From contig MTON01000002.1 of NCBI GenBank assembly GCA_002010665.1, positions 1 to 55,014 on the forward strand: 55,014 nucleotides of DNA, in the 5' to 3' direction. Below the pieces are notes generated by a model. It was not told the origin of the DNA, did not search any database, and saw only the letters and a program-made list of their open reading frames with translations. Positions 13,737-40,614 of this stretch are shown piece by piece. Each line of letters begins with the position of its first letter. Position 1 is the first letter of the stretch. Made by a program: the position numbers and the translations under genes. This stretch comes from Candidatus Aminicenantes bacterium JdFR-78 (GTDB lineage Bacteria > Acidobacteriota > Aminicenantia > JdFR-78).

Positions 13737-13800
13737 TGCCTCCTAAGAACATTAAAAATTAGCAGTTTTTGACAAAATTAGCAACTCCTTAATAAAAAAG

Positions 13801-13827
13801 TTTACTTTGACATAAAGTCTATATAAT
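13801..13827 (+). promoter_or_regulatory. Possible promoter for the serine hydrolase gene
   Basis: A perfect TATAAT (13822-13827) lies 22 bases before the ATG and just ahead of a strong GGAGGAG ribosome site. The -35 is uncertain: TTTACT at 13801 gives 15-base spacing, while the better TTGACA at 13807 is only nine bases away. Confidence 0.35.
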
Positions 13828-13848
13828 ATTTGAAAAGGGAGGAGAGAG

Positions 13849-22258: not shown

Positions 22259-24211
22259 ATGAAGAATATTGGAGTATTCATTTGTCATTGCGGAATTAAT
22301 ATAGCAGGAACAGTGGATGTAAAAAGGCTTGCTGAAGAGGTAACCGAGTTTGACGATGTTAAAATGGCGATTGACTATGTATATATGTGTTCGGACCCTG
22401 GTCAGAATTTAATTAAAGAAAAGATTAAAGAGCAGGAATTAAATAAAGTCATTATAGCATGTTGTTCTCCTTCTCTCCATGAAGTTACTTTCCGTAACAC
22501 AGTTCAATCTGTTGGACTGAATCCATATCAGTGTGAAATTGCTAATATAAGAGAACAGTGTAGTTGGGTTCATGCAGATAAACAAAAAGCGACGCAAAAA
22601 GCAAAGGAAATTATTGCTGCTGTAATTGAAAAAATAAAATTAAATGAATCTCTTTCGCCAATAAAGGTTCCAGTAATAAAAAGAGCTCTTATAATTGGTG
22701 GAGGGGTAAGTGGAATTCATGCAGCTCTAAGCATAGCATATAATGGTTATGAAGTAGTTTTGGTTGAGCGAGAAGCTTCAATTGGTGGGCACATGGCAGA
22801 ACTTTCAGAGACTTATTTAACTCAGGAATGCTCTCCTTGTCTCTTATCATCTAAGATTGTTGAAGTTCAAAATCATCCTTTAATAACAATTCTTACTAAT
22901 TCAGAAATAGAAGAACTTGATGGTTATGTAGGAAATTTCAAAGTGAAAATAAAAACTAAAGCTACTTTTGTGGACCAAGAGAAATGTGATGGTTGTGGGA
23001 TATGTGTGGAAAAATGCCCTGTCTCTATCCCCTGGCAATCAGAGGAGATTTCTGGTAAAACTCGTGCTATATATATTCCATATCCTCAGACTATAGGAAA
23101 TAAAGCAGTAATTGATAAAAAAATCTGTAAATATTTCACCGAAGGATGTACTAAGTGTAAAGAAGCCTGTCCAAAAAATGCTATTAATTTTAAACAAACA
23201 GACAAAATTAGAGAGGAAGCAGTGGGATCAATAATAGTGGCAACTGGTTACAGTCTTTATCCGAAAGAAAAACTGGGTGAATATGGCTATGGAAGGTATA
23301 AAGATGTTATAGATGGGCTACAATTTGAGAGACTAATCTCAGTTTGGGGGCAGCAAAATCGAGAAATAAGAAGACCATCAGATGGTAAAATACCTCGAGA
23401 AGTTGTATTTATTCAATGTGTAGGATCTCGAGATCCAGAACATGGAGTTCCATATTGTTCAAAAATTTGCTGTATGTATGTGGCAAAGCATGCAAAACTT
23501 TATAAGCAAGCAGTACCTGAAGGGCAAGCCTATATTTTTTATATAGATGTAAGAGCAGGAGGAAAGGGTTATGATGAATTCGTGCAAAATGCTATAGAAG
23601 AAGACGGACTTTATTATATAAGAGGGAAAGTTTCAAAAATTTTTCAAGAGAATGGAAAGATTATCGTGTGGGGTGTTGATACACTTGCTGGGAGACAAAT
23701 TGAAATTGCAGCTGATCTTGTTGTTTTGGCCACTGCAATTATTCCAAGTAAAGGTGCAAAAGAATTAGCTAATAAACTAAAAATTTCTTCGGATGAATAT
23801 GGTTTCTTTTCCGAAGTTCATCCAAAGCTTAGACCTGTAGAAAGTCCTACTCCAGGCATTTATCTTGCGGGTTGTGCCCAAGCTCCAAGAGATATCCCGG
23901 AGTCAGTTTCTCATGCATTAGGTGCAGCGAGTAAAGTTGCAGGTCTATTTTCAGAAGATTTACTTTCTCATGAGCCAATAGTTGTATGGGTAGATGAAGA
24001 TTTGTGTAAGGCTTGTGGAATTTGTGTTGAAGTATGTCCTTATAAAGCAAGAGAAATTGATAAATGGAAAAAAATAGCAAAAGTTATTGAAGTTCTTTGT
24101 CAAGGATGTGGAGCGTGTGTAACTGCATGTCCAAATAGTGCCACTCAACAGCGAAATCTTACTTCTAAACAAGTATTTAATATGATAGATGCAGCAATTT
24201 CTATTAAATAA
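22259..24211 (+). CDS. hdrA: Heterodisulfide reductase subunit A-like bifurcating flavoprotein (HdrA, copy 1)
   Basis: A 650-residue HdrA of full normal length. Order: N-terminal domain (GVFICHCGINIAG), FAD-binding GGGVSG followed by GGHMAEL and the cysteine pair in ECSPC, an inserted two-cluster ferredoxin domain (CDGCGICVEKCP and CKYFTEGCTKCKEACP), the thioredoxin-reductase-like remainder, and a C-terminal two-[4Fe-4S] ferredoxin domain (CKACGICVEVCP, CQGCGACVTACP). In methanogens the HdrA flavin splits electron pairs between ferredoxin and the heterodisulfide. No methanogenesis genes are here, so the physiological acceptor differs. The start matches the paralog at 37456 residue by residue. 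hdrC follows after six bases. Confidence 0.95.
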   Translation: MKNIGVFICHCGINIAGTVDVKRLAEEVTEFDDVKMAIDYVYMCSDPGQNLIKEKIKEQELNKVIIACCSPSLHEVTFRNTVQSVGLNPYQCEIANIREQCSWVHADKQKATQKAKEIIAAVIEKIKLNESLSPIKVPVIKRALIIGGGVSGIHAALSIAYNGYEVVLVEREASIGGHMAELSETYLTQECSPCLLSSKIVEVQNHPLITILTNSEIEELDGYVGNFKVKIKTKATFVDQEKCDGCGICVEKCPVSIPWQSEEISGKTRAIYIPYPQTIGNKAVIDKKICKYFTEGCTKCKEACPKNAINFKQTDKIREEAVGSIIVATGYSLYPKEKLGEYGYGRYKDVIDGLQFERLISVWGQQNREIRRPSDGKIPREVVFIQCVGSRDPEHGVPYCSKICCMYVAKHAKLYKQAVPEGQAYIFYIDVRAGGKGYDEFVQNAIEEDGLYYIRGKVSKIFQENGKIIVWGVDTLAGRQIEIAADLVVLATAIIPSKGAKELANKLKISSDEYGFFSEVHPKLRPVESPTPGIYLAGCAQAPRDIPESVSHALGAASKVAGLFSEDLLSHEPIVVWVDEDLCKACGICVEVCPYKAREIDKWKKIAKVIEVLCQGCGACVTACPNSATQQRNLTSKQVFNMIDAAISIK

Positions 24212-24217
24212 ATAAAA

Positions 24218-24760
24218 ATGATTATAATTAATGGCAATAATTTATTAAATTTAGTTCAAAAGGAAAGCGGTCAGGATATTCAAGCATGTTATTATTGTCA
24301 TAAATGTGTAGTTGGTTGTCCTGTTTCTAAATATATGGATATCCCTCCCAATGCCATACTTCGAATGATTCAATACGGAGAAAAAGAAAAGATTTTAAAG
24401 AGCGCTACAATTTGGTTATGTACAGCATGTGAAACTTGTGGAACTCGGTGCCCTAATAATATAGATATTGCTAAAGTAATGGATGTTTTAAAGCAAATGG
24501 CAGTTAAAGAAGGGGTAAAAGGTAAAGAGAAGACTATTCAAATAATGCACAAAGCATTTTTAGCTGGCATAGAAAAACGAGGTCGAATGCATGAATTGAG
24601 TTTAATAAGAGACTTAAAATTGAGAAGTGGAGGTTTATTTAAAGATATAAAATTAGGAATTAAAATGTTTCAACTAGGAAAATTTTCCATTTTTCCTGAA
24701 AAGGTAAGAAACGTTAAAGAAATAAAAAAGATTTTTAAAAAAATTCGGAGTATTGAATGA
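24218..24760 (+). CDS. hdrC: Heterodisulfide reductase subunit C-like ferredoxin (copy 1)
   Basis: A 180-residue HdrC-type iron-sulfur protein with two [4Fe-4S] motifs, Cys24-27-30-34 (CYYCHKCVVGCP) and Cys68-71-74-78 (CTACETCGTRCP). HdrC relays electrons between HdrA and the noncubane clusters of HdrB. The C-terminal ~90 residues are helical and basic, longer than the minimal family. The start overlaps no gene but has no ribosome site; the gene ends with a 4-base overlap onto hdrB, the usual pairing. Confidence 0.92.
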   Translation: MIIINGNNLLNLVQKESGQDIQACYYCHKCVVGCPVSKYMDIPPNAILRMIQYGEKEKILKSATIWLCTACETCGTRCPNNIDIAKVMDVLKQMAVKEGVKGKEKTIQIMHKAFLAGIEKRGRMHELSLIRDLKLRSGGLFKDIKLGIKMFQLGKFSIFPEKVRNVKEIKKIFKKIRSIE

Positions 24761-25602
24761 TTTATTCGTATTATCCTGGTTGTTCTTTACATGGAAGTGC
24801 AAAGGAATACAACCATTCGACTAAGGCTGTTTGCGAGAAGTTGGGGGTCGAGTTGAGAGAGCTTCCTGATTGGATATGTTGTGGAGCATCTTCTGGACAT
24901 AGTTTGAATAAAATCCTTGAAATAGTATTACCTGCTCAGAATCTGAAAATTGCAGAAAAAATTGGTCATGATTTAGTCGTTCCTTGTGCAGCTTGTTACA
25001 ATCGATTAAAAGTAGCTAAAAATGAATTGAGAGAAAAGGAAGAAATTAGAAAGCAAATAAAAGATTTAATAAATTTTGATTTTCAGAATAATATTGAAAT
25101 TTTGAATTTAATTGAATTAATAAAAAATCGAATTGGTTTAGAGACTATTCGTTCCAAAGTAGTTAAGCCCCTTAAAGGTTTAAAAGTTGCTTGCTATTAT
25201 GGTTGTCTTCTTGTTAGACCTCCTACAATAATGGATTTTGATAATCCAGAACATCCAATGTCTCTTGATGAAATAATGAGGGTTATAGGAGCTGAACCAA
25301 TTAATTGGTCATTTAAAACCGAGTGTTGTGGTGGGAGTTTATCTCTGTCCAGAGACGATATTGTTAAAAGTTTAGTAGGAAATATTATAAGAATGGCAGA
25401 AGAGGCTGGGGCTCATATTATAGTTACATTGTGTCCTTTATGTATGGAAAATCTTGATATACGCCAGCCTAATTACAATTTCCCTATTTTATATCTCACC
25501 GAACTTCTCGCTCTTGCTTTTAATTTAAAGGAGAGCGAGAATTTTATTACAAAACATATTGTTAATCCTCTGCCAGTTTTAGAGTCATTGGAGTTATTAT
25601 AA
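24757..25602 (+). CDS. hdrB: Heterodisulfide reductase subunit B-like protein (copy 1)
   Basis: A 281-residue HdrB with two complete CCG domains: Cys9, Cys41-Cys42, Cys77, Cys80, and Cys150, Cys190-Cys191, Cys226, Cys229. In methanogen HdrB these hold two noncubane [4Fe-4S] clusters that cleave the disulfide. All ligands are kept, so it should be catalytic; the substrate in this bacterium is unknown. It overlaps hdrC by four bases and its last base is the first of the next ATG (TAATG), showing tight coupling. Confidence 0.93.
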   Translation: MIYSYYPGCSLHGSAKEYNHSTKAVCEKLGVELRELPDWICCGASSGHSLNKILEIVLPAQNLKIAEKIGHDLVVPCAACYNRLKVAKNELREKEEIRKQIKDLINFDFQNNIEILNLIELIKNRIGLETIRSKVVKPLKGLKVACYYGCLLVRPPTIMDFDNPEHPMSLDEIMRVIGAEPINWSFKTECCGGSLSLSRDDIVKSLVGNIIRMAEEAGAHIIVTLCPLCMENLDIRQPNYNFPILYLTELLALAFNLKESENFITKHIVNPLPVLESLELL

Positions 25603-26486
25603 TGAAAGAGAAAAAAACAATTGGTTCTGTATTGGTTATAGGAGGTGGAATTGGAGGAATGCAGTCAGCCTTAGATTTAGCAGAATCTGGATTTAAAGTA
25701 TACTTGCTTGATTCTGCGCCTGCAATTGGTGGAACAATGGCTGCATTAGACAAAACTTTTCCTACGAATGACTGTGCTATGTGTATTATGGCTCCGAAGT
25801 TAGTGGAATGCGCACGCCATTTAAACATTGAGATTATAACTTGGGCAGATGTGGAATCAGTTCAGGGAGAACCAGGAAATTTCAGAGTTACGTTGAGACA
25901 TCGTCCTCGATATGTAGACTTAGACAAATGCACAGGATGCGGACTCTGTGCAGCTAATTGTCCAGTCAGAAATGTTCCCCATTTTGAACAAGATAGTATA
26001 CCAGAACCAGAATTTAAAAAAGAAGATTTCGAAAAGATAACTGAAATACTAAACAAGCATAGAGAAGATAGAAGCTCTCTTGTTGCAATACTTCAGGATG
26101 TTAATGAAGAATTTAGATATTTACCAGAAGATATATTAAAGTTTATTTCAATAAAATTTGGAATACCGTTAAGTGAAATATATAATATGGCAACATTTTA
26201 TAAAGCCTTTAGTTTGAAACCAAGAGGAAAACATGTAATTTCGGTTTGTCTTGGTACTGCCTGTCACGTTCGAGGTGCACCAAGAATTTTGGAAGAAATC
26301 AAAAGAATATTGAATATCAAAGAAGGAGAGACCACAGAAGATAGATTGTTTACTTTGGAAACTGTAAACTGCCTTGGAGCTTGTGCCTTGGGTCCAATAG
26401 TTGTTGTTGATAATAAATATCACGGGCAAATGACCATAAGAAAGACGAGTAAACTTATTGAAAGGATAAAAGAAACGGAAAAGTAA
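25602..26486 (+). CDS. HdrA N-terminal half fused to a NuoE-like [2Fe-2S] subunit
   Basis: A 294-residue hybrid. Residues ~8-130 match the FAD-binding part of HdrA: GGGIGGM, AIGGTMA, the cysteine pair Cys58/Cys61 in NDCAMCI, and one ferredoxin motif Cys110-113-116-120. HdrA homology then stops. Residues ~142-290 are a thioredoxin-like NuoE/HoxE-type domain with [2Fe-2S] ligands Cys216, Cys221, Cys257 and Cys261. The HdrA segment missing here begins in the NuoG-like fusion at 28368, so the two proteins together can form one complete HdrA. It lies between hdrB and the NuoF-like gene, two bases from the latter. Confidence 0.88.
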   Translation: MKEKKTIGSVLVIGGGIGGMQSALDLAESGFKVYLLDSAPAIGGTMAALDKTFPTNDCAMCIMAPKLVECARHLNIEIITWADVESVQGEPGNFRVTLRHRPRYVDLDKCTGCGLCAANCPVRNVPHFEQDSIPEPEFKKEDFEKITEILNKHREDRSSLVAILQDVNEEFRYLPEDILKFISIKFGIPLSEIYNMATFYKAFSLKPRGKHVISVCLGTACHVRGAPRILEEIKRILNIKEGETTEDRLFTLETVNCLGACALGPIVVVDNKYHGQMTIRKTSKLIERIKETEK

Positions 26487-26488
26487 AA

Positions 26489-28348
26489 ATGGAGAGAAAA
26501 AAATTAAAAGGTATTGCTGAATTAAAGAAATTAAGAGAAGAACTAAAAAAGACATATAAACCAATAAAGCAGTGGATAACTGTTTGTAGTGGAACAGGAT
26601 GTCAGGCTTATGGCTGTAAAGATGTAACCAAAGCTTTTGAAGAAGAAATTAAAGCTCAAAATTTACAGGATGAAATAGGTTTGAGAACAACAGGTTGTCA
26701 TGGATTCTGCGAAAGAGGACCTATAGTGGTCATTCATCCAGAAGGAGCATTCTATCAGAAGGTGCAGCCAAAGGATGCTAAAGAAATTATAACCCAAACA
26801 ATAATAAATAAGAAAATTATAGACCGGTTTCTTTATGTTGATCCTTTAACTGGGAAGAAAATCACTTTAGAAAAAGAAGTTCCATTTTATAAAAAACAAA
26901 TGAGGCTAATTTTTGGAATGAATGGATTAATAGATCCAACTAAAATTGAAGATTATATAGCAATTGGAGGGTATGAAGCATTAGGAAAAGTTTTAAGCAG
27001 CATGAAACAAAAACAAGTCATAGAAGAAGTTAAAAAATCAGGTTTAAGAGGAAGAGGTGGAGCTGGGTTCCCAACTGGTAAAAAATGGGAAATTTGCAAA
27101 AATGCAAAGGGTAATCCTAAATATATAATATGCAATTGTGACGAAGGTGACCCAGGTGCTTATATGGATAGAAGTTTATTGGAAGGTAATCCTCATTTAG
27201 TAATAGAAGGAATGATTATTGGCGCATATGCTATAGGAGCTTCAAAAGGTTATATATATGTTAGAGCAGAATATCCATTAGCTGTGCATAATGCCTCAAT
27301 TGCTTTAAAACAAGCAAAAGAATATGGATTACTTGGGAAAAATATTTTGGGCTTTAATTTTGACTTTGAGATCGAAATTAGTAAAGGAGCTGGAGCTTTT
27401 GTCTCTGGAGAAGAAACTGCACTTATAGCTGCAATTGAGGGAAGACCTCCTGAGCCAAGGCTAAGACCTCCATTTCCAGCAGAAAGTGGACTATGGGGCA
27501 AACCGACTAATATAAATAATGTTGAAACATGGGCAAATGTTCCTTTTATTATAAATAAAGGGGCGGAATGGTATTCAAAAATAGGAACTAATGGGAGTAA
27601 AGGAACAAAAATATTTTCCCTTGTTGGAAAGATCAATAATACAGGATTAGTGGAAGTTCCTATGGGAATGACTTTGAGAGAAATAATTTATGAGATTGGA
27701 GGGGGTATCCCTGGAGGAAAAGAGTTTAAAGCTGTGCAAACAGGAGGTCCTTCAGGAGGATGTATTCCAAAACAACTTTTAGATTTACCAATTGATTTTG
27801 AAAGCTTAACACAAGCAGGCTCAATGATGGGGTCAGGTGGAATGATTGTAATGGATGAAAATACATGCATGGTTGATGTAGCTAGGTATTTTCTTGATTT
27901 TTTAAGGGGCGAATCATGTGGAAAATGTACTTCGTGTAGGGAAGGAATTCAAATAATGTATGAAATTTTGGTCAATATATGCGAAGGTAAAGGTAAACCA
28001 GAAGATATTGAACTCTTAAAAGAAATTGCAGAGGCAGTTAAAGATGCCTCATTATGTGGACTCGGCAAAACAGCATCTAATCCTGTTTTAAGTACATTAC
28101 GTTACTTTATGGATGAATATAAAGCTCATATATATTCAAAAAAATGTCCAGCAGGTGTATGTAAGGAATTGATAATTTATAGGATTGATAAGGAAAAGTG
28201 TACTGGATGTATGGTGTGTTTGAGAAGTTGTTCAGTAAATGCAATAAGTGGTGAAAAACAAAAACCGCACGAAATAAATATAGAAAAATGTATTAAATGT
28301 GGTTCTTGTTTTGAAGTTTGTAGATTCAATGCAGTAATAATTGAGTAA
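26489..28348 (+). CDS. NuoF/HydB-like NAD(H)- and FMN-binding iron-sulfur subunit
   Basis: A 619-residue protein of the kind found in NAD-dependent [FeFe]-hydrogenases and related bifurcating enzymes. Residues ~28-110 are a thioredoxin-like [2Fe-2S] domain (Cys33, Cys38, Cys70, Cys74). The 51-kDa core follows, with GLRGRGGAGFPTG (~187) for FMN/NADH binding and CNCDEGDPGA. CGKCTSCREG then binds a [4Fe-4S] cluster. Two further ferredoxin motifs close the protein (CTGCMVCLRSC, CIKCGSCFEVC). It should be the NADH entry or exit point of block 1. No hydrogenase catalytic subunit is nearby. Confidence 0.93.
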   Translation: MERKKLKGIAELKKLREELKKTYKPIKQWITVCSGTGCQAYGCKDVTKAFEEEIKAQNLQDEIGLRTTGCHGFCERGPIVVIHPEGAFYQKVQPKDAKEIITQTIINKKIIDRFLYVDPLTGKKITLEKEVPFYKKQMRLIFGMNGLIDPTKIEDYIAIGGYEALGKVLSSMKQKQVIEEVKKSGLRGRGGAGFPTGKKWEICKNAKGNPKYIICNCDEGDPGAYMDRSLLEGNPHLVIEGMIIGAYAIGASKGYIYVRAEYPLAVHNASIALKQAKEYGLLGKNILGFNFDFEIEISKGAGAFVSGEETALIAAIEGRPPEPRLRPPFPAESGLWGKPTNINNVETWANVPFIINKGAEWYSKIGTNGSKGTKIFSLVGKINNTGLVEVPMGMTLREIIYEIGGGIPGGKEFKAVQTGGPSGGCIPKQLLDLPIDFESLTQAGSMMGSGGMIVMDENTCMVDVARYFLDFLRGESCGKCTSCREGIQIMYEILVNICEGKGKPEDIELLKEIAEAVKDASLCGLGKTASNPVLSTLRYFMDEYKAHIYSKKCPAGVCKELIIYRIDKEKCTGCMVCLRSCSVNAISGEKQKPHEINIEKCIKCGSCFEVCRFNAVIIE

Positions 28349-28367
28349 ATAGAAAGGTTATTAAGAA

Positions 28368-31300
28368 ATGGTTAATATAATAATTAATAATCAAAAAATT
28401 AAAATAGAAGAAGGAAAAACTATTTTAGAAGCTGCTGAAAAGGCAGGAATAAGCATACCAACTTTATGTTATCATAAAGCTTTGAGTCCATATGGAGCTT
28501 GCCGTATATGTTTAGTCGAAATCGTTGGAGGGGGGAGACCGGGACTAGTTGCTTCTTGCCAATATCCTGTTAAAGAAGGTCTGGTTATAGAAACTGATAC
28601 AGAAAGAGTACGTAAAACGAGAAAGATAATGCTTGAATTAATATTAGCTCGAAATCCAAATTTTGAAAGGGCAAAAGAAATTGCAAGAGAATATGGAATA
28701 ATAAAGAGTAGGATAGAAAAAAAGGAGAAAGATGATTGTATTCTTTGTGGACTTTGTGTTCGAATTTGTAAAGAACGCATGGGACAGAGTGTATTAAGTT
28801 TTATAAATCGCGGATATGAAAGAAAAATCGGTAGCCCATTTGATAAAAAGTCTCCTATATGTATGGGTTGTGGGGCTTGTGCTTTCATATGTCCAACTGG
28901 TGCTATTAAATCTGAAGCTTTTTGTGAGAAGGATTTAATTCCCTTATTGTCTGAGTTTGAAAAGGGTATGGGCACAAGACCTGTAATAAATATTCTGTAT
29001 CCTCAAGCAGTCCCAAATGCACCTGTAATTGATAAAGAACACTGCATTTACTTTAATAAGGAAAAATGCCAAATTTGTAAAGCTGTATGTGAAGCAGATG
29101 CTATTGATTATACAATGGAAGAGAAGAAAGGATATCTTGATGTGGGTGCTATAATTTTTAGCCCAGGTTTTGACCTTTTTGACCCACATTTGAAAGGAGA
29201 GTATGGATACGGCATTTACAAGAATGTAATAACGAGTAGACAATTTGAACGTCTATTAAGTGCTTCTGGTCCATCTCAAGGTGAGATTATTAGACCTTCG
29301 GATGGAAAACATCCAAAAAAAATCGCTTTCATTTCATGCGTGGGTTCAAGAGATATTGTTTGTGGAAATGAGTATTGCTCTTCAGTTTGTTGTATGTATT
29401 CAACTAAGGAAGCTATTATTGCAAAAGAGCATGACCCAGAAATAGAGGCCACTATTTTCTATATGGATATTCGTGCTTTTGGAAAAGGATTTGAGCGATA
29501 TTTTAACAGTGCAAGGGATAATTATGGTATTCGTTATATTAAATGCATGCCTTCCAAAATAATAGAATTGCAACAATCAAAGAATTTGAGAATAACTTAT
29601 AGAAATGATAATAATTCATTTGTAGAAGAAGAATTTGATTTAGTAGTATTAGCAACAGGTATGAAGCCTTCCGAGGAAGTGAAAAAATTAGCTTCTAAAT
29701 TAGGTTTAGAACTTAATGAATATGGTTTTTGTGAAAAAACAGATTTCTTTCCTACCCAAACAAAAACCCCAGGGATTTTTATTTGTGGTGCAATTGGTGA
29801 ACCGAAGGATATTCCAGAGACAATTGTGGAAGCAAGTAGCGCAGCTGCAGAAGCATCGAAATTATTATCTCAAGCCCGAGGTACATTGATATCTAAAAAA
29901 GAATATCCGGAGGAAAAACCTTTTATTGATGAAGAGCCTCGAATTGGAGTTTTTATTTGTCACTGTGGACGAAATATTGGGGGTGTTATTGATGTACCAA
30001 AAGTTGTTGAATATGCTCGTAGTTTACCGTATGTAGTTTTTGCTGAGGAATATTTATATACATGTTCTCAAGATTCTTTAGAAAAAATCAAAGAAGAAAT
30101 TAAAAGACAAAACCTTACTCGTGTAGTAGTAGCCTCATGTACTCCCACTACTCATGCTCCTCTTTTTAGAGATACTATTCGTGAGGCTGGGCTTAATCCA
30201 TATTTATTTGAAATGGCAAGTATTAGAGAACATTGCTCTTGGGTACATATGAAAGAACCGGGAAAGGCTACTGAAAAAGCGAAGGAACTTGTTGCTATGG
30301 CAGTAGCAAAGGCTGCTCTGCTTTCTCCAATCAGACAAGTATCGGTGGAAGTTAATAAAGATGGATTGATTATAGGAGGAGGAATAACAGGAATGATTAC
30401 TGCGATTTCATTGGCTGATCAAGGTTTTGATGTTCATCTTATAGAAAAAACAAATCAATTAGGAGGACATGCAAATAATTTGTATTTTACAATAGATGGA
30501 AAGAATATTCAGGAATTTCTTAAAAGAATAATTGAGAAAGTTGAAAAGCATGAACGAATTCATGTGTATTTGAATGCTGAAGTGAAAGAAATCTCTGGTT
30601 ATCTTGGTAATTACAAAACAATAATTCACTTGAAAGATGAAAATAAATCTATGGAATTACTTCATGGAATCATTGTAATTGCTACAGGTGCAAAAGAATA
30701 TAAACCAACTGAATATTTCTACGGAAAGAATCCTAATGTTATTACACAAACAGAATTTGAGAAGAAATTAGTTAAAAAGGATATTTCAGGTCTTAATAAA
30801 GTTGTTATGATTCAATGCGTTGGCTCAAGAGATGAAGAGCACCCCTATTGCAGTCGAATTTGCTGTTCTCATGCTATAAAGAATGCATTGAAATTAAAGG
30901 AAATAAATCCAGAGGCCCAGATTATAATACTCTATCGTGATATACGTACTTATGGATTTCGAGAAAAATATTATTTGGAAGCAAGAAGAAAAGGGGTACT
31001 CTTTATTCAGTACAATGAAAAAGAAAAGCCAAAAGTGAATGAAGTGAATGGAAAATTACAGGTTAAAGTTAATGACCCGGTAATTGGTGAGGAAGTAATT
31101 TTTGAGCCTGATTTACTTGTTCTTAGCGCTGGAATTTACGCAGATAATGAAGAGCTAAGTCAAACTTTAAAATTACCGTTAACAGAAGATGGATTTTTTA
31201 TGGAAGCTCACGCTAAAATACGTCCTTTAGATTTCACGACTGATGGTATATTTGTTGCTGGATTAGCTCATTCACCCAGAACTATTGAAGAGTCAATTGC

Positions 31301-31595
31301 TCAAGCTAATGGTGCATCAATAAGGGCTGTTTCAATACTATCTAAGGACAAAATTTTAGCTAAAGCTGAAATACCTAAGGTTAATGAAAAATGGTGTTCT
31401 GGATGTGGTATTTGTGAGGAAGTATGTCCATATAATGCTCGGAAGGTGGATCCTGAGACAAAGATAGCTGAAGTAATAGAGGTTTTATGTCAGGCCTGTG
31501 GAGCTTGTGCAATGGCATGTCCAAATGGAGTTTCTCAACAAAGATATTTTGAAATGAAAGAGATATTTGCTATAATAGATACTGCTTTAGGTTAA
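28368..31595 (+). CDS. NuoG N-domain - HdrA C-terminal half - second HdrA triple fusion
   Basis: A 1075-residue protein. Residues 1-80 are a NuoG-type [2Fe-2S] domain (Cys34, Cys45, Cys48, Cys64). No His-Cys3 cluster motif follows. Two [4Fe-4S] motifs are at Cys124-127-130-134 and Cys165-168-171-175. Residues ~203-515 match HdrA only from the second inserted cluster onward (Cys226, 234, 237, 241), ending with FFPTQTKTPGIFICGA. At ~524 a further HdrA begins (RIGVFICHCGRNIGG), with its own GGGITGM flavin site (~670) and C-terminal two-cluster domain (CSGCGICEEVCP, CQACGACAMACP). That second HdrA lacks both the inserted ferredoxin domain and the cysteine pair after GGHANN. It is probably the scaffold of a large NADH-linked Hdr complex. 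Confidence 0.9.
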   Translation: MVNIIINNQKIKIEEGKTILEAAEKAGISIPTLCYHKALSPYGACRICLVEIVGGGRPGLVASCQYPVKEGLVIETDTERVRKTRKIMLELILARNPNFERAKEIAREYGIIKSRIEKKEKDDCILCGLCVRICKERMGQSVLSFINRGYERKIGSPFDKKSPICMGCGACAFICPTGAIKSEAFCEKDLIPLLSEFEKGMGTRPVINILYPQAVPNAPVIDKEHCIYFNKEKCQICKAVCEADAIDYTMEEKKGYLDVGAIIFSPGFDLFDPHLKGEYGYGIYKNVITSRQFERLLSASGPSQGEIIRPSDGKHPKKIAFISCVGSRDIVCGNEYCSSVCCMYSTKEAIIAKEHDPEIEATIFYMDIRAFGKGFERYFNSARDNYGIRYIKCMPSKIIELQQSKNLRITYRNDNNSFVEEEFDLVVLATGMKPSEEVKKLASKLGLELNEYGFCEKTDFFPTQTKTPGIFICGAIGEPKDIPETIVEASSAAAEASKLLSQARGTLISKKEYPEEKPFIDEEPRIGVFICHCGRNIGGVIDVPKVVEYARSLPYVVFAEEYLYTCSQDSLEKIKEEIKRQNLTRVVVASCTPTTHAPLFRDTIREAGLNPYLFEMASIREHCSWVHMKEPGKATEKAKELVAMAVAKAALLSPIRQVSVEVNKDGLIIGGGITGMITAISLADQGFDVHLIEKTNQLGGHANNLYFTIDGKNIQEFLKRIIEKVEKHERIHVYLNAEVKEISGYLGNYKTIIHLKDENKSMELLHGIIVIATGAKEYKPTEYFYGKNPNVITQTEFEKKLVKKDISGLNKVVMIQCVGSRDEEHPYCSRICCSHAIKNALKLKEINPEAQIIILYRDIRTYGFREKYYLEARRKGVLFIQYNEKEKPKVNEVNGKLQVKVNDPVIGEEVIFEPDLLVLSAGIYADNEELSQTLKLPLTEDGFFMEAHAKIRPLDFTTDGIFVAGLAHSPRTIEESIAQANGASIRAVSILSKDKILAKAEIPKVNEKWCSGCGICEEVCPYNARKVDPETKIAEVIEVLCQACGACAMACPNGVSQQRYFEMKEIFAIIDTALG

Positions 31596-31596
31596 T

Positions 31597-32028
31597 ATGG
31601 AGAGAAAGATGGAATTTGAACCAAAAATTATAGCATTTGTATGTAATTGGTGTACATATGCAGCTGCGGATTTGGCTGGGACCTCAAGAATTCAATATCC
31701 TCCAAATGTCCGCATTATACGCTTAATGTGCAGTGGAGCTGTAGACCCCATTTATATTCTTAAAGCTTTATTAGATGGTGCAGATGGAGTTTTAATAGGA
31801 GGATGTCACCCTGGCGACTGTCATTATCAAAATGGAAATTATAAAGCAAGACGTCGTTTTGCTATTTTAAGAACAATTTTAAGGGATTTAGGAATCCCGG
31901 ATGAAAGGGTTAGATTAGAATGGATTAGTGCAAGCGAAGGAAAGAAGTTTGCAGATACGATTACAAATATGGTAGAAGAATTAAAAAAGCTTGGTCCCAG
32001 TCCATTTAAAACTATGTGGGAAATTTAA
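31597..32028 (+). CDS. mvhD: MvhD-like [2Fe-2S] electron-transfer subunit (copy 1)
   Basis: A 143-residue MvhD/VhuD-type protein. Its conserved Cys are Cys16 and Cys19 (CNWC), Cys45 (LMCSG), and Cys70 and Cys75 (GGCHPGDCHY). In methanogens MvhD passes electrons from hydrogenase or formate dehydrogenase to HdrA. Here it directly follows the HdrA fusion (one base gap). An in-frame ATG at 31609, preceded by GGAGAG, is an alternative start that would remove four residues. The electron donor is not encoded beside it. Confidence 0.93.
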   Translation: MERKMEFEPKIIAFVCNWCTYAAADLAGTSRIQYPPNVRIIRLMCSGAVDPIYILKALLDGADGVLIGGCHPGDCHYQNGNYKARRRFAILRTILRDLGIPDERVRLEWISASEGKKFADTITNMVEELKKLGPSPFKTMWEI

Positions 32029-32062: not shown

Positions 32063-33151
32063 ATGATTATACCTTTAAAGGATGGTGATATAGAGGAGAC
32101 TCTAAACAAATTCTTTAAAGATATTTTAGAAAAAAAAATCGTTGATGCTCTATTTATTCCTCAGTCGATTTTTTCTGGAAGAAGTTATGCTTATACTTTA
32201 GTTAAAGACCCATCTAAAATTAAAAACGTTCAACCCTTTTTACCAATTTTAATGAATAATGGTGCGAAGTTGATTTCCTCGCTCACTTTCTGGGATCCTA
32301 AGCAGAAAATAGGTGCAGTGTTGAGGTCTTGTGAAATTCGAGGTGTTATAGAACTTGCTAAATTTAAACAAATTACTCTTGACCGACTTTTTCTTATAGG
32401 GGTTGATTGTTTAGGAACGATGGAAATAGAGGACTTTGAGAAAGTTCTAAATAGCAAGGAAGGGTTTAAATTGGAGAAATTTCTCTCTGATTTAATTTCT
32501 GGTGCTCCGGTTAATATAAGAAAAGCTTGTCAGATTTGTTCTTCTCCTGTTCCACAAAATGTATTAATGAATTTGGGATTTATTGGAGTTGACATTAAAA
32601 AAGAAATTTTTATACATACTTCTGATGAATTAGCTCAGGAGCTTGGGATTGAGAAAAAGAGTAATCCTGATAAAAGAGAGGAAGTTCTATCACAAATTGT
32701 TGCAAAAAAGAAGAAACAACGAGATCAATTTCTTGCTGAATTAAGGAAAAAGTTTAAATCAATATCAGATTTATTAAATGAATTTGCTCGATGCAAGCGT
32801 TGTTATAATTGTAGAGTAGAATGTCCCATTTGTTATTGTAAAGAATGTGTTTTCCTGACGAATGTTTTTGAACATCGACCAGAACAATATTTAAAATGGG
32901 CGGAAAGAAAAGGACTCATAAAATTTCCATATGACACATTACTTTTCCACCTTACAAGATTAAATCATATTGCAGCTTCATGTATAAGTTGTGGCCAATG
33001 TAGTAGTGCTTGTCCCAATAATCTACCAGTCTTTGAACTCTTTCAACTTGTAGGAAATGATGTACAGAAATTGTTTGAGTATGAACCAGGAAATAATATC
33101 GATGAAAGACCCCCAATAATTACATTTAAAGAAGAACTTGAGCCTCTATAG
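32063..33151 (+). CDS. FrhB/FdhB-like iron-sulfur protein
   Basis: A 362-residue protein. The N-terminal ~220 residues resemble the beta subunit of coenzyme-F420 hydrogenase/formate dehydrogenase (LRSCEIRGVIELAKF, FLIGVDCLGTM, KACQICSSP). The C-terminal part has two ferredoxin-type motifs, Cys244-247-250-254 and Cys307-310-313-317, with three extra cysteines (257, 259, 262) after the first. Such proteins often accompany HdrA-MvhD and may carry flavin and exchange electrons with a soluble donor. F420 use is not implied. A clear AAAGGAG site precedes it. It appears to end block 1. Confidence 0.78.
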   Translation: MIIPLKDGDIEETLNKFFKDILEKKIVDALFIPQSIFSGRSYAYTLVKDPSKIKNVQPFLPILMNNGAKLISSLTFWDPKQKIGAVLRSCEIRGVIELAKFKQITLDRLFLIGVDCLGTMEIEDFEKVLNSKEGFKLEKFLSDLISGAPVNIRKACQICSSPVPQNVLMNLGFIGVDIKKEIFIHTSDELAQELGIEKKSNPDKREEVLSQIVAKKKKQRDQFLAELRKKFKSISDLLNEFARCKRCYNCRVECPICYCKECVFLTNVFEHRPEQYLKWAERKGLIKFPYDTLLFHLTRLNHIAASCISCGQCSSACPNNLPVFELFQLVGNDVQKLFEYEPGNNIDERPPIITFKEELEPL

Positions 33152-33192: not shown

Positions 33193-33221
33193 TTGACAAA
33201 ATATTCTATTTGTGCTGTACT
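33193..33221 (+). promoter_or_regulatory. Promoter for the second Hdr operon
   Basis: A perfect TTGACA (33193-33198) and TGTACT (33216-33221) lie 17 bases apart, 31 bases before the hdrC ATG at 33253, with an AGAGGT ribosome site between. The same TTG could be read as an upstream start codon of the hdrC frame, but it is better explained as the -35 box. Confidence 0.5.
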
Positions 33222-33252
33222 AAAATGTAAAGATTCGCAAGAGGTCAACCAC

Positions 33253-33660
33253 ATGAGAATAGAACTCAATGGGGAAAAAATAAGAAATAATTTTGTAGCT
33301 AAAATTTCTGAAATTAGTGGACAGAATCTCCTTGCTTGTTATCAGTGTGGAAAGTGTTCCGCGGGTTGTCCATTGGTTTCCGAGATGGATATTTTGCCTA
33401 ATCAAGTTATCCGTTTTGCGCAACTTGGGCTTATAGAAGAATTATTATCTTGTAAGTCTATCTGGATTTGTGCTTCTTGTTTAACATGCAATACCAGATG
33501 CCCTCGAGGAGTTAATATCGCTGAAGTAATGGAGGCAATTCGTTTAATCCTTCTTCGCAAAAATATTGATAATTTAAAAATCATAGAATTAAATGAAAAA
33601 AGAAGGGTAGAACTACCTCAAATAGCATTAGTAAGTAGTTTTAGAAAAAAAACAGCGTAA
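33253..33660 (+). CDS. hdrC: Heterodisulfide reductase subunit C-like ferredoxin (copy 2)
   Basis: A 135-residue HdrC with Cys29-32-35-39 (CYQCGKCSAGCP) and Cys73-76-79-83 (CASCLTCNTRCP). The frame is open upstream to a TTG at 33193, but ATG 33253 has AGAGGT in front and aligns with the family start, so I use it. It is shorter at the C-terminus than copy 1. It pairs with the hdrB copy 44 bases downstream and is the first gene of block 2. Confidence 0.9.
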   Translation: MRIELNGEKIRNNFVAKISEISGQNLLACYQCGKCSAGCPLVSEMDILPNQVIRFAQLGLIEELLSCKSIWICASCLTCNTRCPRGVNIAEVMEAIRLILLRKNIDNLKIIELNEKRRVELPQIALVSSFRKKTA

Positions 33661-33704
33661 TAATATGTTAATATTTAATAATTTATTTTTAGTGAGGATT
33701 AATA

Positions 33705-34583
33705 ATGAAAATATCTTATTATCCAGGGTGCACTTTAAAGGTAAATGCAAAGAATTTTGAAGATTCAACTATAGCCAGTCTTAAAGAATTAGATGTGGAG
33801 CTTGAAGAACTCCCGCGATGGAATTGTTGCGGAACAGTTTATTCTCTTTCCACGGATGATTTAATTCATCACGTTGCTCCTATCCGTAATCTCCTCCGAG
33901 TAAAGGAACAAAATAATAATAAAGTAGTTACCCTTTGTGCGATGTGTTTTAATACTCTTAAAAGAGCAAATCTTAAAGTTAGAGAGGAACCCGATAGTCT
34001 CGAAAAAATAAATAATTTGATGTATTTAGAGAAGTTGAAGTATGAAGGAGATGTGGAAGTATTACATTTAATTGAGGTCTTGCGAAATGAGGTGGGTTTC
34101 TCAACATTGAGACAAAAAATCACTCGCCCTTTAAGAAATCTAAAGGTAGCTAGTTACTATGGCTGTCTATTAGTTAGACCAAGAGAAATAGGAATTGATG
34201 ATCCAGAAAATCCTACAATTATGGAAGAATTGGTAAAAAATTTAGGAGGAGACCCCATTGATTTTCCCTATAAAACCGAATGTTGTGGAGCATATCAGAC
34301 AGTGGATCATCCAGAAATAGTAATTAGTAGAACATATAGCATAATTTCTTCAGCTCAAGTAAATGGAGCAGAAGTTATAATGGTAAGTTGCCCTCTTTGT
34401 GCTTTTAATCTTGACCATCGCCAGAAAGAAACAAAACAGAAATATTTGGAATTTAGACCTATGCCAATTTTATATTTTACACAATTATTAGCAATTGCTT
34501 TAAATTGTCCTGAGAATGTATTAAAATTTGATTTGCATTATGTCGATCCCAAGCCTATTTTAAAAGAAAAAGGTTTAATTTAA
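33705..34583 (+). CDS. hdrB: Heterodisulfide reductase subunit B-like protein (copy 2)
   Basis: A 292-residue HdrB with both noncubane cluster sites intact: Cys9, Cys41-42, Cys78, Cys81, and Cys154, Cys193-194, Cys229, Cys232. It is clearly paralogous to copy 1 (YYGCLLVRP, ECCG and CPLC shared). A GAGG ribosome site precedes it. It is followed two bases later by the KorD-like ferredoxin, so HdrBC and the 2-oxoacid oxidoreductase are made together. Confidence 0.93.
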   Translation: MKISYYPGCTLKVNAKNFEDSTIASLKELDVELEELPRWNCCGTVYSLSTDDLIHHVAPIRNLLRVKEQNNNKVVTLCAMCFNTLKRANLKVREEPDSLEKINNLMYLEKLKYEGDVEVLHLIEVLRNEVGFSTLRQKITRPLRNLKVASYYGCLLVRPREIGIDDPENPTIMEELVKNLGGDPIDFPYKTECCGAYQTVDHPEIVISRTYSIISSAQVNGAEVIMVSCPLCAFNLDHRQKETKQKYLEFRPMPILYFTQLLAIALNCPENVLKFDLHYVDPKPILKEKGLI

Positions 34584-34585
34584 AA

Positions 34586-34861
34586 ATGATTTATTTTGGA
34601 GACTTAAAACCTAAAAAAGGTAAAATTCATATATTAAAAGATAGATGTAAGGGGTGTGGATTCTGTGTAGAATATTGCCCGAGAGATGTACTTGAATTGT
34701 CAGAGGAGTTTAATATTAAAGGGTATCACCCCCCGTATGTTAAGAATGAAGATGAATGCTGTTATTGTCAGCTTTGTGAGACTATATGCCCTGAATTTGC
34801 TATATTTGTAACCTTAAAAGAGGAGGAAAGAAAAAGTGAAAAAGATTACCGCAGACCCTAA
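34586..34861 (+). CDS. korD: 2-oxoacid:ferredoxin oxidoreductase delta subunit (ferredoxin)
   Basis: A 91-residue two-[4Fe-4S] ferredoxin (CKGCGFCVEYCPRDVL and CCYCQLCETICP) of the KorD/OorD type, which takes electrons from the thiamine enzyme. Gene order delta-alpha-beta-gamma is normal for 2-oxoglutarate enzymes. It overlaps korA by 26 bases in another frame; the ribosome site of korA lies inside its 3' end. Confidence 0.92.
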   Translation: MIYFGDLKPKKGKIHILKDRCKGCGFCVEYCPRDVLELSEEFNIKGYHPPYVKNEDECCYCQLCETICPEFAIFVTLKEEERKSEKDYRRP

Positions 34862-36002
34862 GGGAGTTTTAACTGGAGTCCATTATTTGGATGGTGACTT
34901 TGCAATAGCTGAAGGCGCATTAGCAGCAGGGTGTCGTTTCTTTGCTGGGTATCCTATAACACCTTCAACTGAAGTTGCAGAAAGATTTGCAGAAAGAATT
35001 CCTTTAATTGGAGGAGTTTTTATACAAATGGAAGATGAGCTTGGTTCAATTGCTGCAGTAATTGGGGCTTCATGGGCTGGAGTTAAAGCTATGACTGTAA
35101 CCTCAGGTCCTGGTTTCTCTCTCATGATGGAAAACATCGGTTTAGCAGCAATGATGGAAGTCCCGTGTGTAATTGCTAATGTGCAGAGAGGGGGGCCTTC
35201 AACCGGTTTACCAACATTACCCGGCCAGGGAGACATGATGCAGGTTAGATGGGGTTCCCATGGGGATTATGAAATTATTGCTCTTTCTCCTAATTCTCCA
35301 CAAGAATGTTTCGACCTTACAATTGAAGCATTTAATCTTTCTGAAATGTATAGAGTCCCTGTTTTTATTATGACGGATGAATGTGTAGGACATATGCATG
35401 AAAGAGTTGTTATCCCGCCCCCTGAAGAAATTGAACTCATTGAAAGAAAATGGTATGAGGGACCAAAAGACAAGTATTTACCTTACAAACCTGATAAAGA
35501 TATGATTCCATTTATGGTGAAAGCTGGAGATGGATATCGTTTCCATACTACAGGGTTAACTCATGATGAAAGAGGTTATCCTGTTATTAATGCAGAATGC
35601 CAAAATATTTTAGTCCCTCGTCTTGTTGAAAAAATAAAAAAGAATGCGGATAAAATTATAAAATTTGAAGAAGAGGAGACAGATACAGCAGAGGTTATAG
35701 TTATTTCATATGGAATAACTTCAAGAGTTGCTATTAAAGCAGTACAAGAAGCAAGAGAAAAAGGTATGAAAGTGGGAACTTTGAGATTGATTACCGTATG
35801 GCCTTTTCCTGAAAAACGAGTGAAAGAACTTGCTGAAAAAGTAAAAGCATTTATTGTCCCTGAAATTAATTATGGTCAGATTGTATTAGAAGTAGAACGC
35901 TGTGCTGGTGGAAAAGCTTCAGTTATTGGAGTGCCCCATTGCGGAGGCGGAGTCCATGATCCAGATATTATTTTTAATGCAATTAAGGAGGCTTTAAAAT
36001 GA
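34836..36002 (+). CDS. korA: 2-oxoglutarate:ferredoxin oxidoreductase alpha subunit
   Basis: A 388-residue alpha subunit of a 2-oxoacid:ferredoxin oxidoreductase, with GDFAIAEGALAAGCRFFAGYPITPSTE-type N-terminus (best match: 2-oxoglutarate class), GPGFSLMMENIG, RGGPSTGLPTLPGQGD and the C-terminal domain ending in HCGGGVHDPD. It uses a GTG start, supported by AGGAGG about eight bases upstream and the overlap with korD. It converts 2-oxoglutarate and CoA to succinyl-CoA plus reduced ferredoxin, or the reverse. Substrate choice between 2-oxoglutarate and other 2-oxoacids is inferred from gene set and sequence resemblance. Confidence 0.92.
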   Translation: MKKITADPKGVLTGVHYLDGDFAIAEGALAAGCRFFAGYPITPSTEVAERFAERIPLIGGVFIQMEDELGSIAAVIGASWAGVKAMTVTSGPGFSLMMENIGLAAMMEVPCVIANVQRGGPSTGLPTLPGQGDMMQVRWGSHGDYEIIALSPNSPQECFDLTIEAFNLSEMYRVPVFIMTDECVGHMHERVVIPPPEEIELIERKWYEGPKDKYLPYKPDKDMIPFMVKAGDGYRFHTTGLTHDERGYPVINAECQNILVPRLVEKIKKNADKIIKFEEEETDTAEVIVISYGITSRVAIKAVQEAREKGMKVGTLRLITVWPFPEKRVKELAEKVKAFIVPEINYGQIVLEVERCAGGKASVIGVPHCGGGVHDPDIIFNAIKEALK

Positions 36003-36880
36003 AGAAAGAAGTAGAGAGCGGGGAGAAAAACCCAATAGAAAGCTTTCTTAGAATGGATAGAATTCCTCATATATGGTGTCCTGGTTGTGGAATTGGGATT
36101 GTTGTAACTTCTTTTGTTGATGCGCTTCGGAAAAGTGATATTGATTTAGATAAGGTATGTGTTGTATCAGGAATTGGATGTACTGGAAGAGTAGCTGGTT
36201 ATTTAAAATTAGATTCATTTCATACTACTCATGGCCGTGCTATTCCTTTTGCAACAGGACTAAAGCTTGCTAATCCTGAATTAAAAGTTGTTGTTTTCAG
36301 TGGAGATGGAGATTTAATTGCAATTGGTGGGAATCATTTTATTCATGCAGCCCGTAGAAATATGGATTTAGTTATAATATGTGTAAATAACTTCAACTAT
36401 GCTATGACAGGTGGTCAATTAGGTCCTACAACTCCACTTGAGGCTAATCTCTCAACCGCTCCTTATGGTAATTTTGAATATCCATTTAATCTCCCATACC
36501 TTGCGGAAGCATGCGGTGCAACTTATGTTGCTCGATGGACTGCTCTTCACTTAAGAAGACTTTCAAAATCTATCCAAGAGGCTTTATCACATAAAGGTTT
36601 TTCCTTTATCGAAGTTATAACACCATGTGTAACTTTATATGCCAGAAGAAATCGCCTTGGTAGCGGACTGAATTTATTAAAATATTATCATGACAATTCT
36701 GAAATTCAACACGGAGCAGATACAAAGACTCTTGATATAAGTTTTCAAGGGAAACTTATTGTAGGAAAATTTGTAGAAAAGGAAAAACCTACGTTTCTTG
36801 ATGCCATGAATCAACGTCTTAGTAGAGTTTTAGGAGATAAATACCAGTTATATGGGAGAATAAATGATGATAGAGATTAG
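35999..36880 (+). CDS. korB: 2-oxoglutarate:ferredoxin oxidoreductase beta subunit
   Basis: A 293-residue thiamine-diphosphate-binding beta subunit. The TPP motif GDGDLIAIGGNHFIHAARRN is followed by NNFNYAMTGGQ. Cysteines in WCPGCGIG and GIGCTGR, with the later TPCVTLY, can hold the [4Fe-4S] cluster. It overlaps korA by four bases (ATGA) and korC by 17. Length is normal. Confidence 0.94.
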   Translation: MKKEVESGEKNPIESFLRMDRIPHIWCPGCGIGIVVTSFVDALRKSDIDLDKVCVVSGIGCTGRVAGYLKLDSFHTTHGRAIPFATGLKLANPELKVVVFSGDGDLIAIGGNHFIHAARRNMDLVIICVNNFNYAMTGGQLGPTTPLEANLSTAPYGNFEYPFNLPYLAEACGATYVARWTALHLRRLSKSIQEALSHKGFSFIEVITPCVTLYARRNRLGSGLNLLKYYHDNSEIQHGADTKTLDISFQGKLIVGKFVEKEKPTFLDAMNQRLSRVLGDKYQLYGRINDDRD

Positions 36881-37415
36881 ATTTTCTGGTTTTGGTGGGC
36901 AAGGAATTATTAGATGTGGTTTAATCACAGGAAAAGCATTGGCACTTTTTGATAATAAACATGCAACCATGACTCAAAGTTTTGGACCAGAAGCGAGGGG
37001 CTCTGCCTGTAGTTCCCAACTTGTAGTTTCAGAGGATAAAGTTCTTTATCCTTACGTTACGAATCCTCATATACTGGTAGCAATGTCTCAAGATGCGTAT
37101 GAAAAATATTATCCTGAACTGAGAGATGGAGGAACCCTTATAGTAGATGGAGATCTTGTTAAGGTTAAACCTGATAAAAGGAATATAAAAATTTATTCCA
37201 TACCAGCAACACGTTTTGCAGAAGAACTAGGGAATAAAATAATTGCTAATCTCGTGATGCTTGGATTTTTTACTGCAGTTACTAAAATTGTTTCCCCAGA
37301 TGCTATGAAAAAAGCACTCCCTGGATTAGTTCCAGACAGATTTCTAGATTTAAATTTGAAGGCATTTGATCGTGGATATGAATATGGAAAGCAAATATTA
37401 ACTTCGCAAAAATGA
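36864..37415 (+). CDS. korC: 2-oxoglutarate:ferredoxin oxidoreductase gamma subunit
   Basis: A 183-residue gamma subunit (FSGFGGQGIIRCGLITGKA, TQSFGPEARGSACSSQLVVS, then VPDRFLDLNLKAFDRGYEYG). It binds CoA with the other subunits. GGGAG precedes the start; ATG codons at 36864 and 36867 are equally possible. It completes the four-subunit enzyme and is followed by the second hdrA 40 bases later. Confidence 0.93.
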   Translation: MMIEIRFSGFGGQGIIRCGLITGKALALFDNKHATMTQSFGPEARGSACSSQLVVSEDKVLYPYVTNPHILVAMSQDAYEKYYPELRDGGTLIVDGDLVKVKPDKRNIKIYSIPATRFAEELGNKIIANLVMLGFFTAVTKIVSPDAMKKALPGLVPDRFLDLNLKAFDRGYEYGKQILTSQK

Positions 37416-39406: not shown

Positions 39407-39814
39407 ATGAGAAAAGAGATTTTTGAACCCAAAATAGTTTGTTTTGCGTGTAAGTGGTGTACTTCAGCAGGGGCTGATTTAGCAGGAACATTAAGATTTA
39501 AATACAAACCAAATGGAATAATTATAAAGATTATGTGTTCTTCTCGAGTAGATCCTCAGCATGTTTTATGGGCTTTTAAACAAAAAGCTGACGGAATATT
39601 AATAGGAGGATGCCATCCTGGTGACTGTCATTATCAAAATGGAAATCTTAAAACTATGCGCCGTGTCATGCTTTTGAAAAAATTATTAAATGATTTTGGA
39701 GTAGAGCCGGAAAGGCTTCATTTAGAGTGGATTTCTGCATCCGAAGGCAAAAAATTTGTAAAAACTATGGACAATTTTATTGAAAAAATTAGGAAACTTG
39801 GTCCCTTAAAATGA
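39407..39814 (+). CDS. mvhD: MvhD-like [2Fe-2S] electron-transfer subunit (copy 2)
   Basis: A 135-residue MvhD, paralogous to copy 1, with CKWC near residue 15, IMCSSRVDP and GGCHPGDCHY. It begins one base after the hdrA stop with no ribosome site, so it is translationally coupled. Its neighbours downstream are a fumarate-reductase-like pair rather than a hydrogenase or formate dehydrogenase, which suggests that it connects HdrA with that enzyme. Confidence 0.93.
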   Translation: MRKEIFEPKIVCFACKWCTSAGADLAGTLRFKYKPNGIIIKIMCSSRVDPQHVLWAFKQKADGILIGGCHPGDCHYQNGNLKTMRRVMLLKKLLNDFGVEPERLHLEWISASEGKKFVKTMDNFIEKIRKLGPLK

Positions 39815-40559: not shown

Positions 40560-40614
40560 TATTTTTTTATGAACAAGGAAGATTTAGAAAATAAATATAT
40601 GGAGGTTATTTAAA

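Follow-up and report, generated by a model that had tools for sequence, protein, structure and literature searches.

A tandem HdrA with its first unit divided between NuoE- and NuoG-like subunits in Candidatus Aminicenantes bacterium JdFR-78

In a stretch of 55,014 nucleotides from Candidatus Aminicenantes bacterium JdFR-78 (contig MTON01000002.1; hereafter the window), the first unit of a tandem HdrA, a protein that conserves energy by splitting electron pairs, is divided between two proteins. The protein encoded at 25602 (here called E) begins as the front half of HdrA and continues as NuoE. The protein encoded at 28368 (here called G) begins as NuoG, continues as the back half of HdrA and ends with a second HdrA unit. 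Since the same cut recurs in other microbes, the two halves probably rebuild one machine over two chains. We propose, with a probability of roughly 0.7, that E, NuoF and G form one bifurcating complex in which a Bfu module sits inside the first HdrA unit of the tandem HdrA. The insertion of a GltD-type domain into HdrA, tandem HdrA and the pairing of Bfu with Hdr are already known. A split HdrA distributed over two chains of a Bfu-type enzyme is undescribed in the openly licensed literature searched, in which no split HdrA fused to NuoE or NuoG was found.

The split HdrA and its recurrence

The initial annotation described E as HdrA up to the first cluster of the inserted ferredoxin, followed by NuoE, and suggested an alignment with the intact HdrA encoded at 22259. 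This alignment bears the description out: residues 6-122 of E cover residues 139-255 of the intact protein with 40% identity (E 5e-30). Residues 11-122 share 50% identity with the HdrA encoded at 37456, residues 10-127 match residues 146-262 of the solved HdrA 5odc, and a full NuoE domain occupies residues 146-290 (PF01257, 163 bits). In G, residues 165-447 match 5odc 246-510. In this match, as in the BLAST and phmmer alignments, the last NuoG motif (C165-C175) is aligned with the first inserted motif of HdrA, whose place it takes in G, and HdrA sequence proper begins in the linker ahead of C226. Of one HdrA profile, E (residues 6-129) covers positions 138-262 and G (residues 195-503) positions 259-563. 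Hence, the halves overlap by just 4 model positions, in agreement with the earlier view that they are complementary and separated by the NuoF gene (26489-28348). That view also recognized the NuoG start of G and its HdrA part from the second cluster onward but missed a second complete HdrA (residues 524-1075). This second unit matches 5odc 2-235 and 502-646 and has a complete FAD (flavin adenine dinucleotide) fold (Z 38.6 to the HdrA-like 6tjr). G is thus a tandem HdrA in which only the first unit is split. As this first unit is spread over two genes rather than lying on one polypeptide, we describe the split HdrA as a variant, not a member, of the tandem type II.

The junction region of G served as query against 297 genomes of the phylum (E up to 1e-35), with at most nine candidates scored per genome, which makes the counts lower bounds. 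At least 22 fusions covering NuoG and HdrA were found in at least 19 of the 297 genomes. Three are of a long type that carries a second HdrA as in the window, and 19 are of a short type, mostly of about 585 residues, built from NuoG, the HdrA back half and a C-terminal ferredoxin. Short-type loci within the phylum sample have the front half, which includes the HdrA N-domain, as a gene of its own upstream of the back half, and NuoE is separate. Of the 22 fusions, 19 are accompanied by a truncated HdrA front within the same stretch; for the other three (G132, G195, G091), the front is on another contig of that genome. A scan of named genomes, in which the best 80 of 182 matching stretches correspond to 77 loci, adds three long-type loci (L058, L059 and L121, the last from a Thermoplasmata archaeon) and one short-type locus with NuoE fused to the front (L060, from Cloacimonadota). 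In total, 26 fusions were found, with a front in the same genome or record in all 26 and in the same stretch in 23. The arrangement is real and conserved.

In all eight front-NuoE fusions found, HdrA ends right after the CX2CX2CX3C motif and a short linker leads into NuoE. In all 26 NuoG-HdrA fusions found, the NuoG part closes on its own final CX2CX2CX3C motif, after which HdrA resumes in the linker before its second motif. These junction points place the cut inside the inserted ferredoxin, between its two motifs. A survey of genomes for the split point, as suggested in the initial annotation, thus returns the same point in 26 of 26 fusions, which argues against a split by chance.

Most residues that hardly vary in intact HdrA are retained across the cut. 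Among 82 intact rows, 71 columns are near-invariant (at least 95% identity; 30 in the front and 41 in the back half). All 71 are present in the window, 417 of 426 in the six long-type pairs and 1134 of 1207 in the 17 short-type pairs. The concatenated set behind these comparisons excludes seven of 122 unsplit two-half rows as long or broken, and three of 20 short-type backs (L135, L142, L140) have no front in the row set. All 28 fronts that are truncated or fused to NuoE have an intact first inserted-ferredoxin motif. The CxnCX3CC motif of the back half is likewise intact in all 23 split pairs, and all 26 fusions preserve both NuoG motifs as well as the second motif of HdrA. Taken together, E and G carry the GxGxxG FAD domain, CxnCX3CC and both inserted-ferredoxin motifs. 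Complementary and collinear halves that retain the cluster ligands and nearly always occur together are what assembly in trans predicts.

The genome of JdFR-78 contains a second split HdrA (L041, contig 9, 3347-16777). It is of the short type and lies beside NiFe hydrogenase genes, apparently forming an Hdr-Bfu-Mvh cluster.

The NADH module and the proposed complex

Residues 29-616 of the 619 residues of NuoF (588 residues) align with BfuB of the bifurcating NiFe hydrogenase 7t2r (848 bits), whereas the complex-I NuoF chains in the match list align just over about residues 149-554. NuoF combines an N-terminal thioredoxin-like [2Fe-2S] part, a flavin mononucleotide (FMN) part and a C-terminal part with two [4Fe-4S] clusters. 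A BfuB with these N- and C-terminal cluster domains, accompanied by BfuC, identifies the inserted module on sequence grounds as Bfu type. Consistently, the top fold match of the NuoE part is the BfuC-type chain 9mqx_C (Z 19.4, root-mean-square deviation 2.9, 154 residues), followed by other Bfu chains and a formate dehydrogenase subunit. Residues 2-181 of G match chain A of that same entry and are devoid of the His-Cys3 motif, as in Type 2 Bfu enzymes; we take the A3 cluster missing from Type 2 to be the His-Cys3 one. The earlier interpretation, in which assembly in trans locks HdrA onto an NADH dehydrogenase module, is thus supported in part, but the module is not of a plain complex-I type. 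As NuoF aligns almost end to end with BfuB, the module may itself bifurcate between NAD and ferredoxin. Among the 40 window proteins scanned against Pfam (smaller open reading frames lay outside the scan), neither a complex-I membrane-arm family nor an AFOR (aldehyde ferredoxin oxidoreductase, BamB-like) domain was found. An AFOR-type enzyme could be encoded elsewhere in the genome.

A stand-alone NuoE-NuoF-NuoG operon followed by a glutamate synthase-like protein is also present in the genome (L174, contig 4, 209-4869). Proteins of 526 residues that by eye resemble the one in L174 lie beside operons in L176, L177 and L183. The L174 operon is of a Bfu type that presumably uses a third substrate.

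In the complex that we propose, NuoE would correspond to BfuC, NuoF to BfuB and the start of NuoG to BfuA, with the nuoE-nuoF-nuoG cassette placed inside hdrA, in frame at both ends and between the Cys motifs of the inserted ferredoxin. Assembly of NuoE, NuoF and NuoG would bring the HdrA front on NuoE and the HdrA back on NuoG together, and one FAD site and one two-cluster ferredoxin would be rebuilt across two chains. The fusion would place the NuoG clusters at the inserted-ferredoxin port, and electrons might pass between the BfuB FMN, the NuoG clusters, the rebuilt ferredoxin and the HdrA flavin. They could travel in either direction, from HdrA into the Bfu module with reduction of NAD and ferredoxin, or inward from NADH and ferredoxin. 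For the four motifs to yield two two-cluster ferredoxins, the motif of E would have to pair with the second HdrA motif of G. Ordinary ferredoxins with two clusters use the last Cys of each motif to ligate the other cluster; with the E motif paired in this way, both clusters would therefore join both chains. MvhD with the FdhB-like protein and HdrC/HdrB would provide the other ports, docking roles that we assume here. The far partners are probably the SdhA/SdhB-like pair and a ferredoxin-using 2-oxoacid enzyme.

Several observations weigh against such a complex. The split HdrA lies between two intact HdrA genes, whose products could bifurcate instead. The residues said to mark bifurcating HdrA (E356/K409, Methanothermococcus numbering; PMC9430772) are kept in 23 of 23 split pairs and also in all 115 other rows. 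With conservation in all 138 rows, they do not discriminate. The predicted model of E is weakest directly after the motif (mean predicted local distance difference test score, pLDDT, of 55 at residues 121-130). That of G is weakest in the NuoG part (pLDDT block means from 27) and reaches just 55-70 at the HdrA motif. Low model confidence at the cluster motifs may reflect the absence of partners, but also sparse or misplaced rows in the alignment. The fold matches listed for E in the PDB all concern NuoE and those for G all concern the second HdrA, so that none speaks to the front or the back half.

Front halves are also seen without a back half; the counts are those among the matches listed and hence minimum values. 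L063 encodes a free-standing HdrA front of 137 residues, NuoE, NuoF and a NuoG (12758-14035) that has a GcvH-like domain instead of the HdrA back half, with broken HdrA pieces downstream. L064 starts as L063 does and its contig ends in NuoF. A front-NuoE fusion occurs in L057, where the contig ends before a back half could show, and in L062, with no back half in the 2.3 kb left. The fronts of genomes G211 and G258 (L053, L056) lie on contigs that end before any partner, and no full-length NuoG-HdrA fusion is among the matches listed for these two genomes. The initial annotation held that relatives routinely devoid of one half would speak against its proposal; such absence is clear once (L063), and five further fronts have no back half on their contig, but this is the exception. 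Although some fronts thus appear without a back half, a front was found for every NuoG-HdrA fusion.

The halves might instead be relics that act only as docking or electron-relay arms, while other HdrAs (the flanking ones or the second in G) bifurcate. G would then form a ferredoxin alone from Cys165-175 and Cys226-241, and the E front would complete no FAD site. The last NuoG motif, sitting where the first inserted motif of HdrA would be, the lone front half of L063 and the two flanking intact HdrA genes all agree with this idea. Relics would hardly be expected to keep 417 of 426 near-invariant columns in the six long-type pairs, with the front motif intact in 28 of 28 cases and the three G motifs in 26 of 26, and short-type loci keep the front half as a gene of its own upstream of the back half. 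Moreover, every motif finds a partner only when that of E pairs with Cys226-241. We regard this relic reading as quite unlikely.

That the NADH module is an ordinary, non-bifurcating entry of complex-I type, which just feeds the HdrA flavin, also appears unlikely. The names and domains fit NuoEFG, and the GltD-type domain found at the same site in relatives (see below) points to a simple entry site for NAD(P)H electrons, of the kind put forward for type III HdrA (PMC12054007). However, NuoF has the extra [2Fe-2S] and two [4Fe-4S] clusters and matches BfuB over its 588 aligned residues, whereas the non-bifurcating Bfu homologues are described as having no clusters B2-B5 (PMC9304861). In a draft assembly, one might suspect that an intact HdrA only looks split because of an annotation error, a frameshift or misassembly, all the more as some related loci are broken across contigs. 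Yet E and G are both complete open reading frames with start and stop, the 1.9 kb between them contain an intact NuoF, and the same gene order is found again in many genomes, which makes an artefact of this kind scarcely credible. We therefore favour the Bfu module within a split HdrA.

Relatives and origin of the inserted module

The closest relative found of the HdrA parts in the window is a single protein of about 1477 residues in a Gemmatimonadota locus (L061). Its identity to the window amounts to 82% in the front, 70% in the back, 80% in the N-domain, 69% in the second FAD domain and 73% in the C-terminal ferredoxin. Between the same two motifs, this protein carries about 500 residues with Fer4_20 and Pyr_redox_2 matches, indicative of a GltD-type NAD(P)H domain. 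No Fer4_20 match was found in E or G, which sets them apart from type III HdrA. The neighbours of the L061 gene that match the window are HdrC, HdrB, the FdhB-like protein, SdhB and SdhA; the 20 kb of L061 contain no match to NuoE, NuoF, NuoG, MvhD or the 2-oxoacid enzyme of the window. Two other loci, L039 (7474-10665) and L062 (8830-11904), encode a NuoF with a C-terminal GltD-type domain next to a front-NuoE fusion and combine both NAD(P)H modules in one system.

In the HdrA trees, one of two of which was built on 117 of 138 rows, the window pairs with L061 (Shimodaira-Hasegawa-like approximate likelihood ratio test, SH-aLRT, 100) and adjoins GltD-carrying proteins. A single clade of the six long-type splits is rejected for the HdrA halves (approximately unbiased test, p-AU 0.005, 53 hand-picked rows), as is a single clade of the seven long-type rows for NuoF (p-AU 0.0006). 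The window NuoF adjoins the stand-alone Bfu of its own genome in L174 (82% identity, SH-aLRT 91). For the NuoG starts, a short part with little power, a single clade is not rejected, either for all 26 (p-AU 0.47) or for the six long-type sequences (0.36), and the window groups with L058 and L141 (SH-aLRT 95). The best matches of NuoE are a mix of long-type, front-only and stand-alone loci. The simplest account would be that the GltD-type domain gave way to a Bfu cassette at the same port. An exchange of cassettes, followed by the replacement of individual genes, would be compatible with the HdrA, NuoF and NuoG trees.

An unsplit counterpart occurs in genome G113, where an intact tandem HdrA is followed by separate NuoE, NuoF and NuoG genes and coexists with the split locus L039. 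This cluster also encodes an HdrD-like protein and a protein of the aldehyde ferredoxin oxidoreductase family, and presumably resembles the bam cluster.

More generally, the inserted ferredoxin might act as a plug-in port for NAD(P)H modules, into which a whole Bfu enzyme was spliced. Each [4Fe-4S] cluster of the two-chain ferredoxin would then take Cys ligands from both chains, two bifurcation sites (the FMN site of BfuBC and an HdrA FAD site assembled in trans) would be locked together, and the arrangement would have spread by cassette swaps between HdrA genes. We put this broader view forward tentatively and give it somewhat less than even odds.

Known systems and gene neighbourhood

The insertion of a GltD-type domain is known from Moorella HdrA and archaeal type III HdrA (PMC12054007). 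The build of type III HdrA and of the HdrA in the HdrABC-MvhD-MetVF cluster of Moorella thermoacetica is shared by L061. There, the insert is one domain in one chain, while the window has a Bfu module of three genes in its place and a first HdrA unit divided over two chains. In the Bam complex of class II benzoyl-CoA reductase, the BamGHI Bfu module works with an HdrA-type module. Electron entry from NADH and ferredoxin has been proposed for this Bam-Bfu, although the true nature of bifurcation could not be demonstrated (PMC9304861). Unlike in the window, NuoE, NuoF, NuoG and HdrA are separate and intact in the Bam-like cluster of G113. With the HydABC-like Bfu family, the window shares the BfuB and BfuC core and a BfuA without His-Cys3 as in Type 2, and no HdrA-fused BfuA or BfuC appears in the part of the family account in PMC9304861 used here. 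The HdrA fold, HdrB/HdrC, MvhD and an FdhB/ElpB-like partner are shared with the methanogen HdrABC-MvhAGD and Fdh-/Elp-Hdr complexes. As far as the cited descriptions go, HdrA is one chain in those complexes, with its inserted ferredoxin open to polyferredoxin or ferredoxin. The structural paper PMC12350162 treats this ferredoxin as the anticipated electron exit. From the complex I N-module, the window differs by its BfuB-like NuoF and by the absence of membrane-arm families from the 40 proteins scanned.

The genes of the locus are closely spaced (Table 1): E shares 1 base with HdrB, and 2 bases separate E from NuoF, 19 bases NuoF from G and 1 base G from MvhD. The gene neighbourhood suggests a coupling of fumarate/succinate, NADH and ferredoxin. 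The SdhB/SdhA-like pair lies within the Hdr cluster and is common to L061 and L071; it possibly represents a soluble, Hdr-linked fumarate reductase or succinate dehydrogenase. Unlike this pair, the 2-oxoacid enzyme of the window is not common to L061 and L071.

Table 1. Genes and domains of the split HdrA locus in the window.
Feature	Position	Strand	Basis or remark
Intact HdrA, 650 residues; alignment reference	22259..24211	+	Open reading frame list, alignment, profile search
HdrC-like, 4Fe-4S dicluster	24218..24760	+	Name from gene order and sequence
HdrB-like, CCG domains	24757..25602	+	1-base overlap with start of E
E: HdrA front half and NuoE (BfuC-like), 294 residues	25602..26486	+	
E: HdrA front half, residues 9-122, FAD-binding Rossmann part to first inserted-ferredoxin motif	25626..25967	+	
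E: first inserted-ferredoxin motif CX2CX2CX3C, Cys110-113-116-120	25929..25961	+	
E: NuoE domain	26037..26471	+	PF01257
NuoF, HydB/BfuB type	26489..28348	+	Pfam and sequence match to BfuB
G: NuoG start, HdrA back half and second complete HdrA, 1075 residues	28368..31595	+	
G: NuoG [2Fe-2S] domain, about residues 1-100	28368..28658	+	
G: NuoG 2x[4Fe-4S] motifs, Cys124-134 and Cys165-175	28737..28892	+	
G: HdrA back half, residues 205-500	28980..29867	+	
G: second inserted-ferredoxin motif, Cys226, 234, 237, 241	29043..29090	+	
G: second HdrA unit, residues 524-1075; N-domain, FAD domain without inserted ferredoxin, C-terminal ferredoxin	29937..31592	+	
MvhD (FlpD)	31597..32028	+	PF02662
FdhB/ElpB-like protein; homologue of subunit in solved Hdr complexes	32063..33151	+	
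Second HdrC-HdrB pair	33193..34583	+	
2-oxoacid:ferredoxin oxidoreductase subunits, KorDABC-like	34586..37415	+	
Second intact HdrA, 649 residues	37456..39405	+	
Second MvhD	39407..39814	+	Pfam
SdhB/TfrB-like and SdhA/TfrA-like, fumarate reductase or succinate dehydrogenase subunits	39864..42282	+	

How Bfu modules hand electrons to HdrA, for example in the benzoyl-CoA reductase complex, is an unsolved problem on which this locus touches. Both ends of the Bfu module are fused to halves of the inserted ferredoxin, which points to the contact site and to a compact complex. If our proposal is true, the locus would provide a natural example in which two chains together build a bifurcating flavin domain and a two-cluster ferredoxin. 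It also suggests that NAD(P)H modules are exchangeable at the inserted ferredoxin of HdrA.

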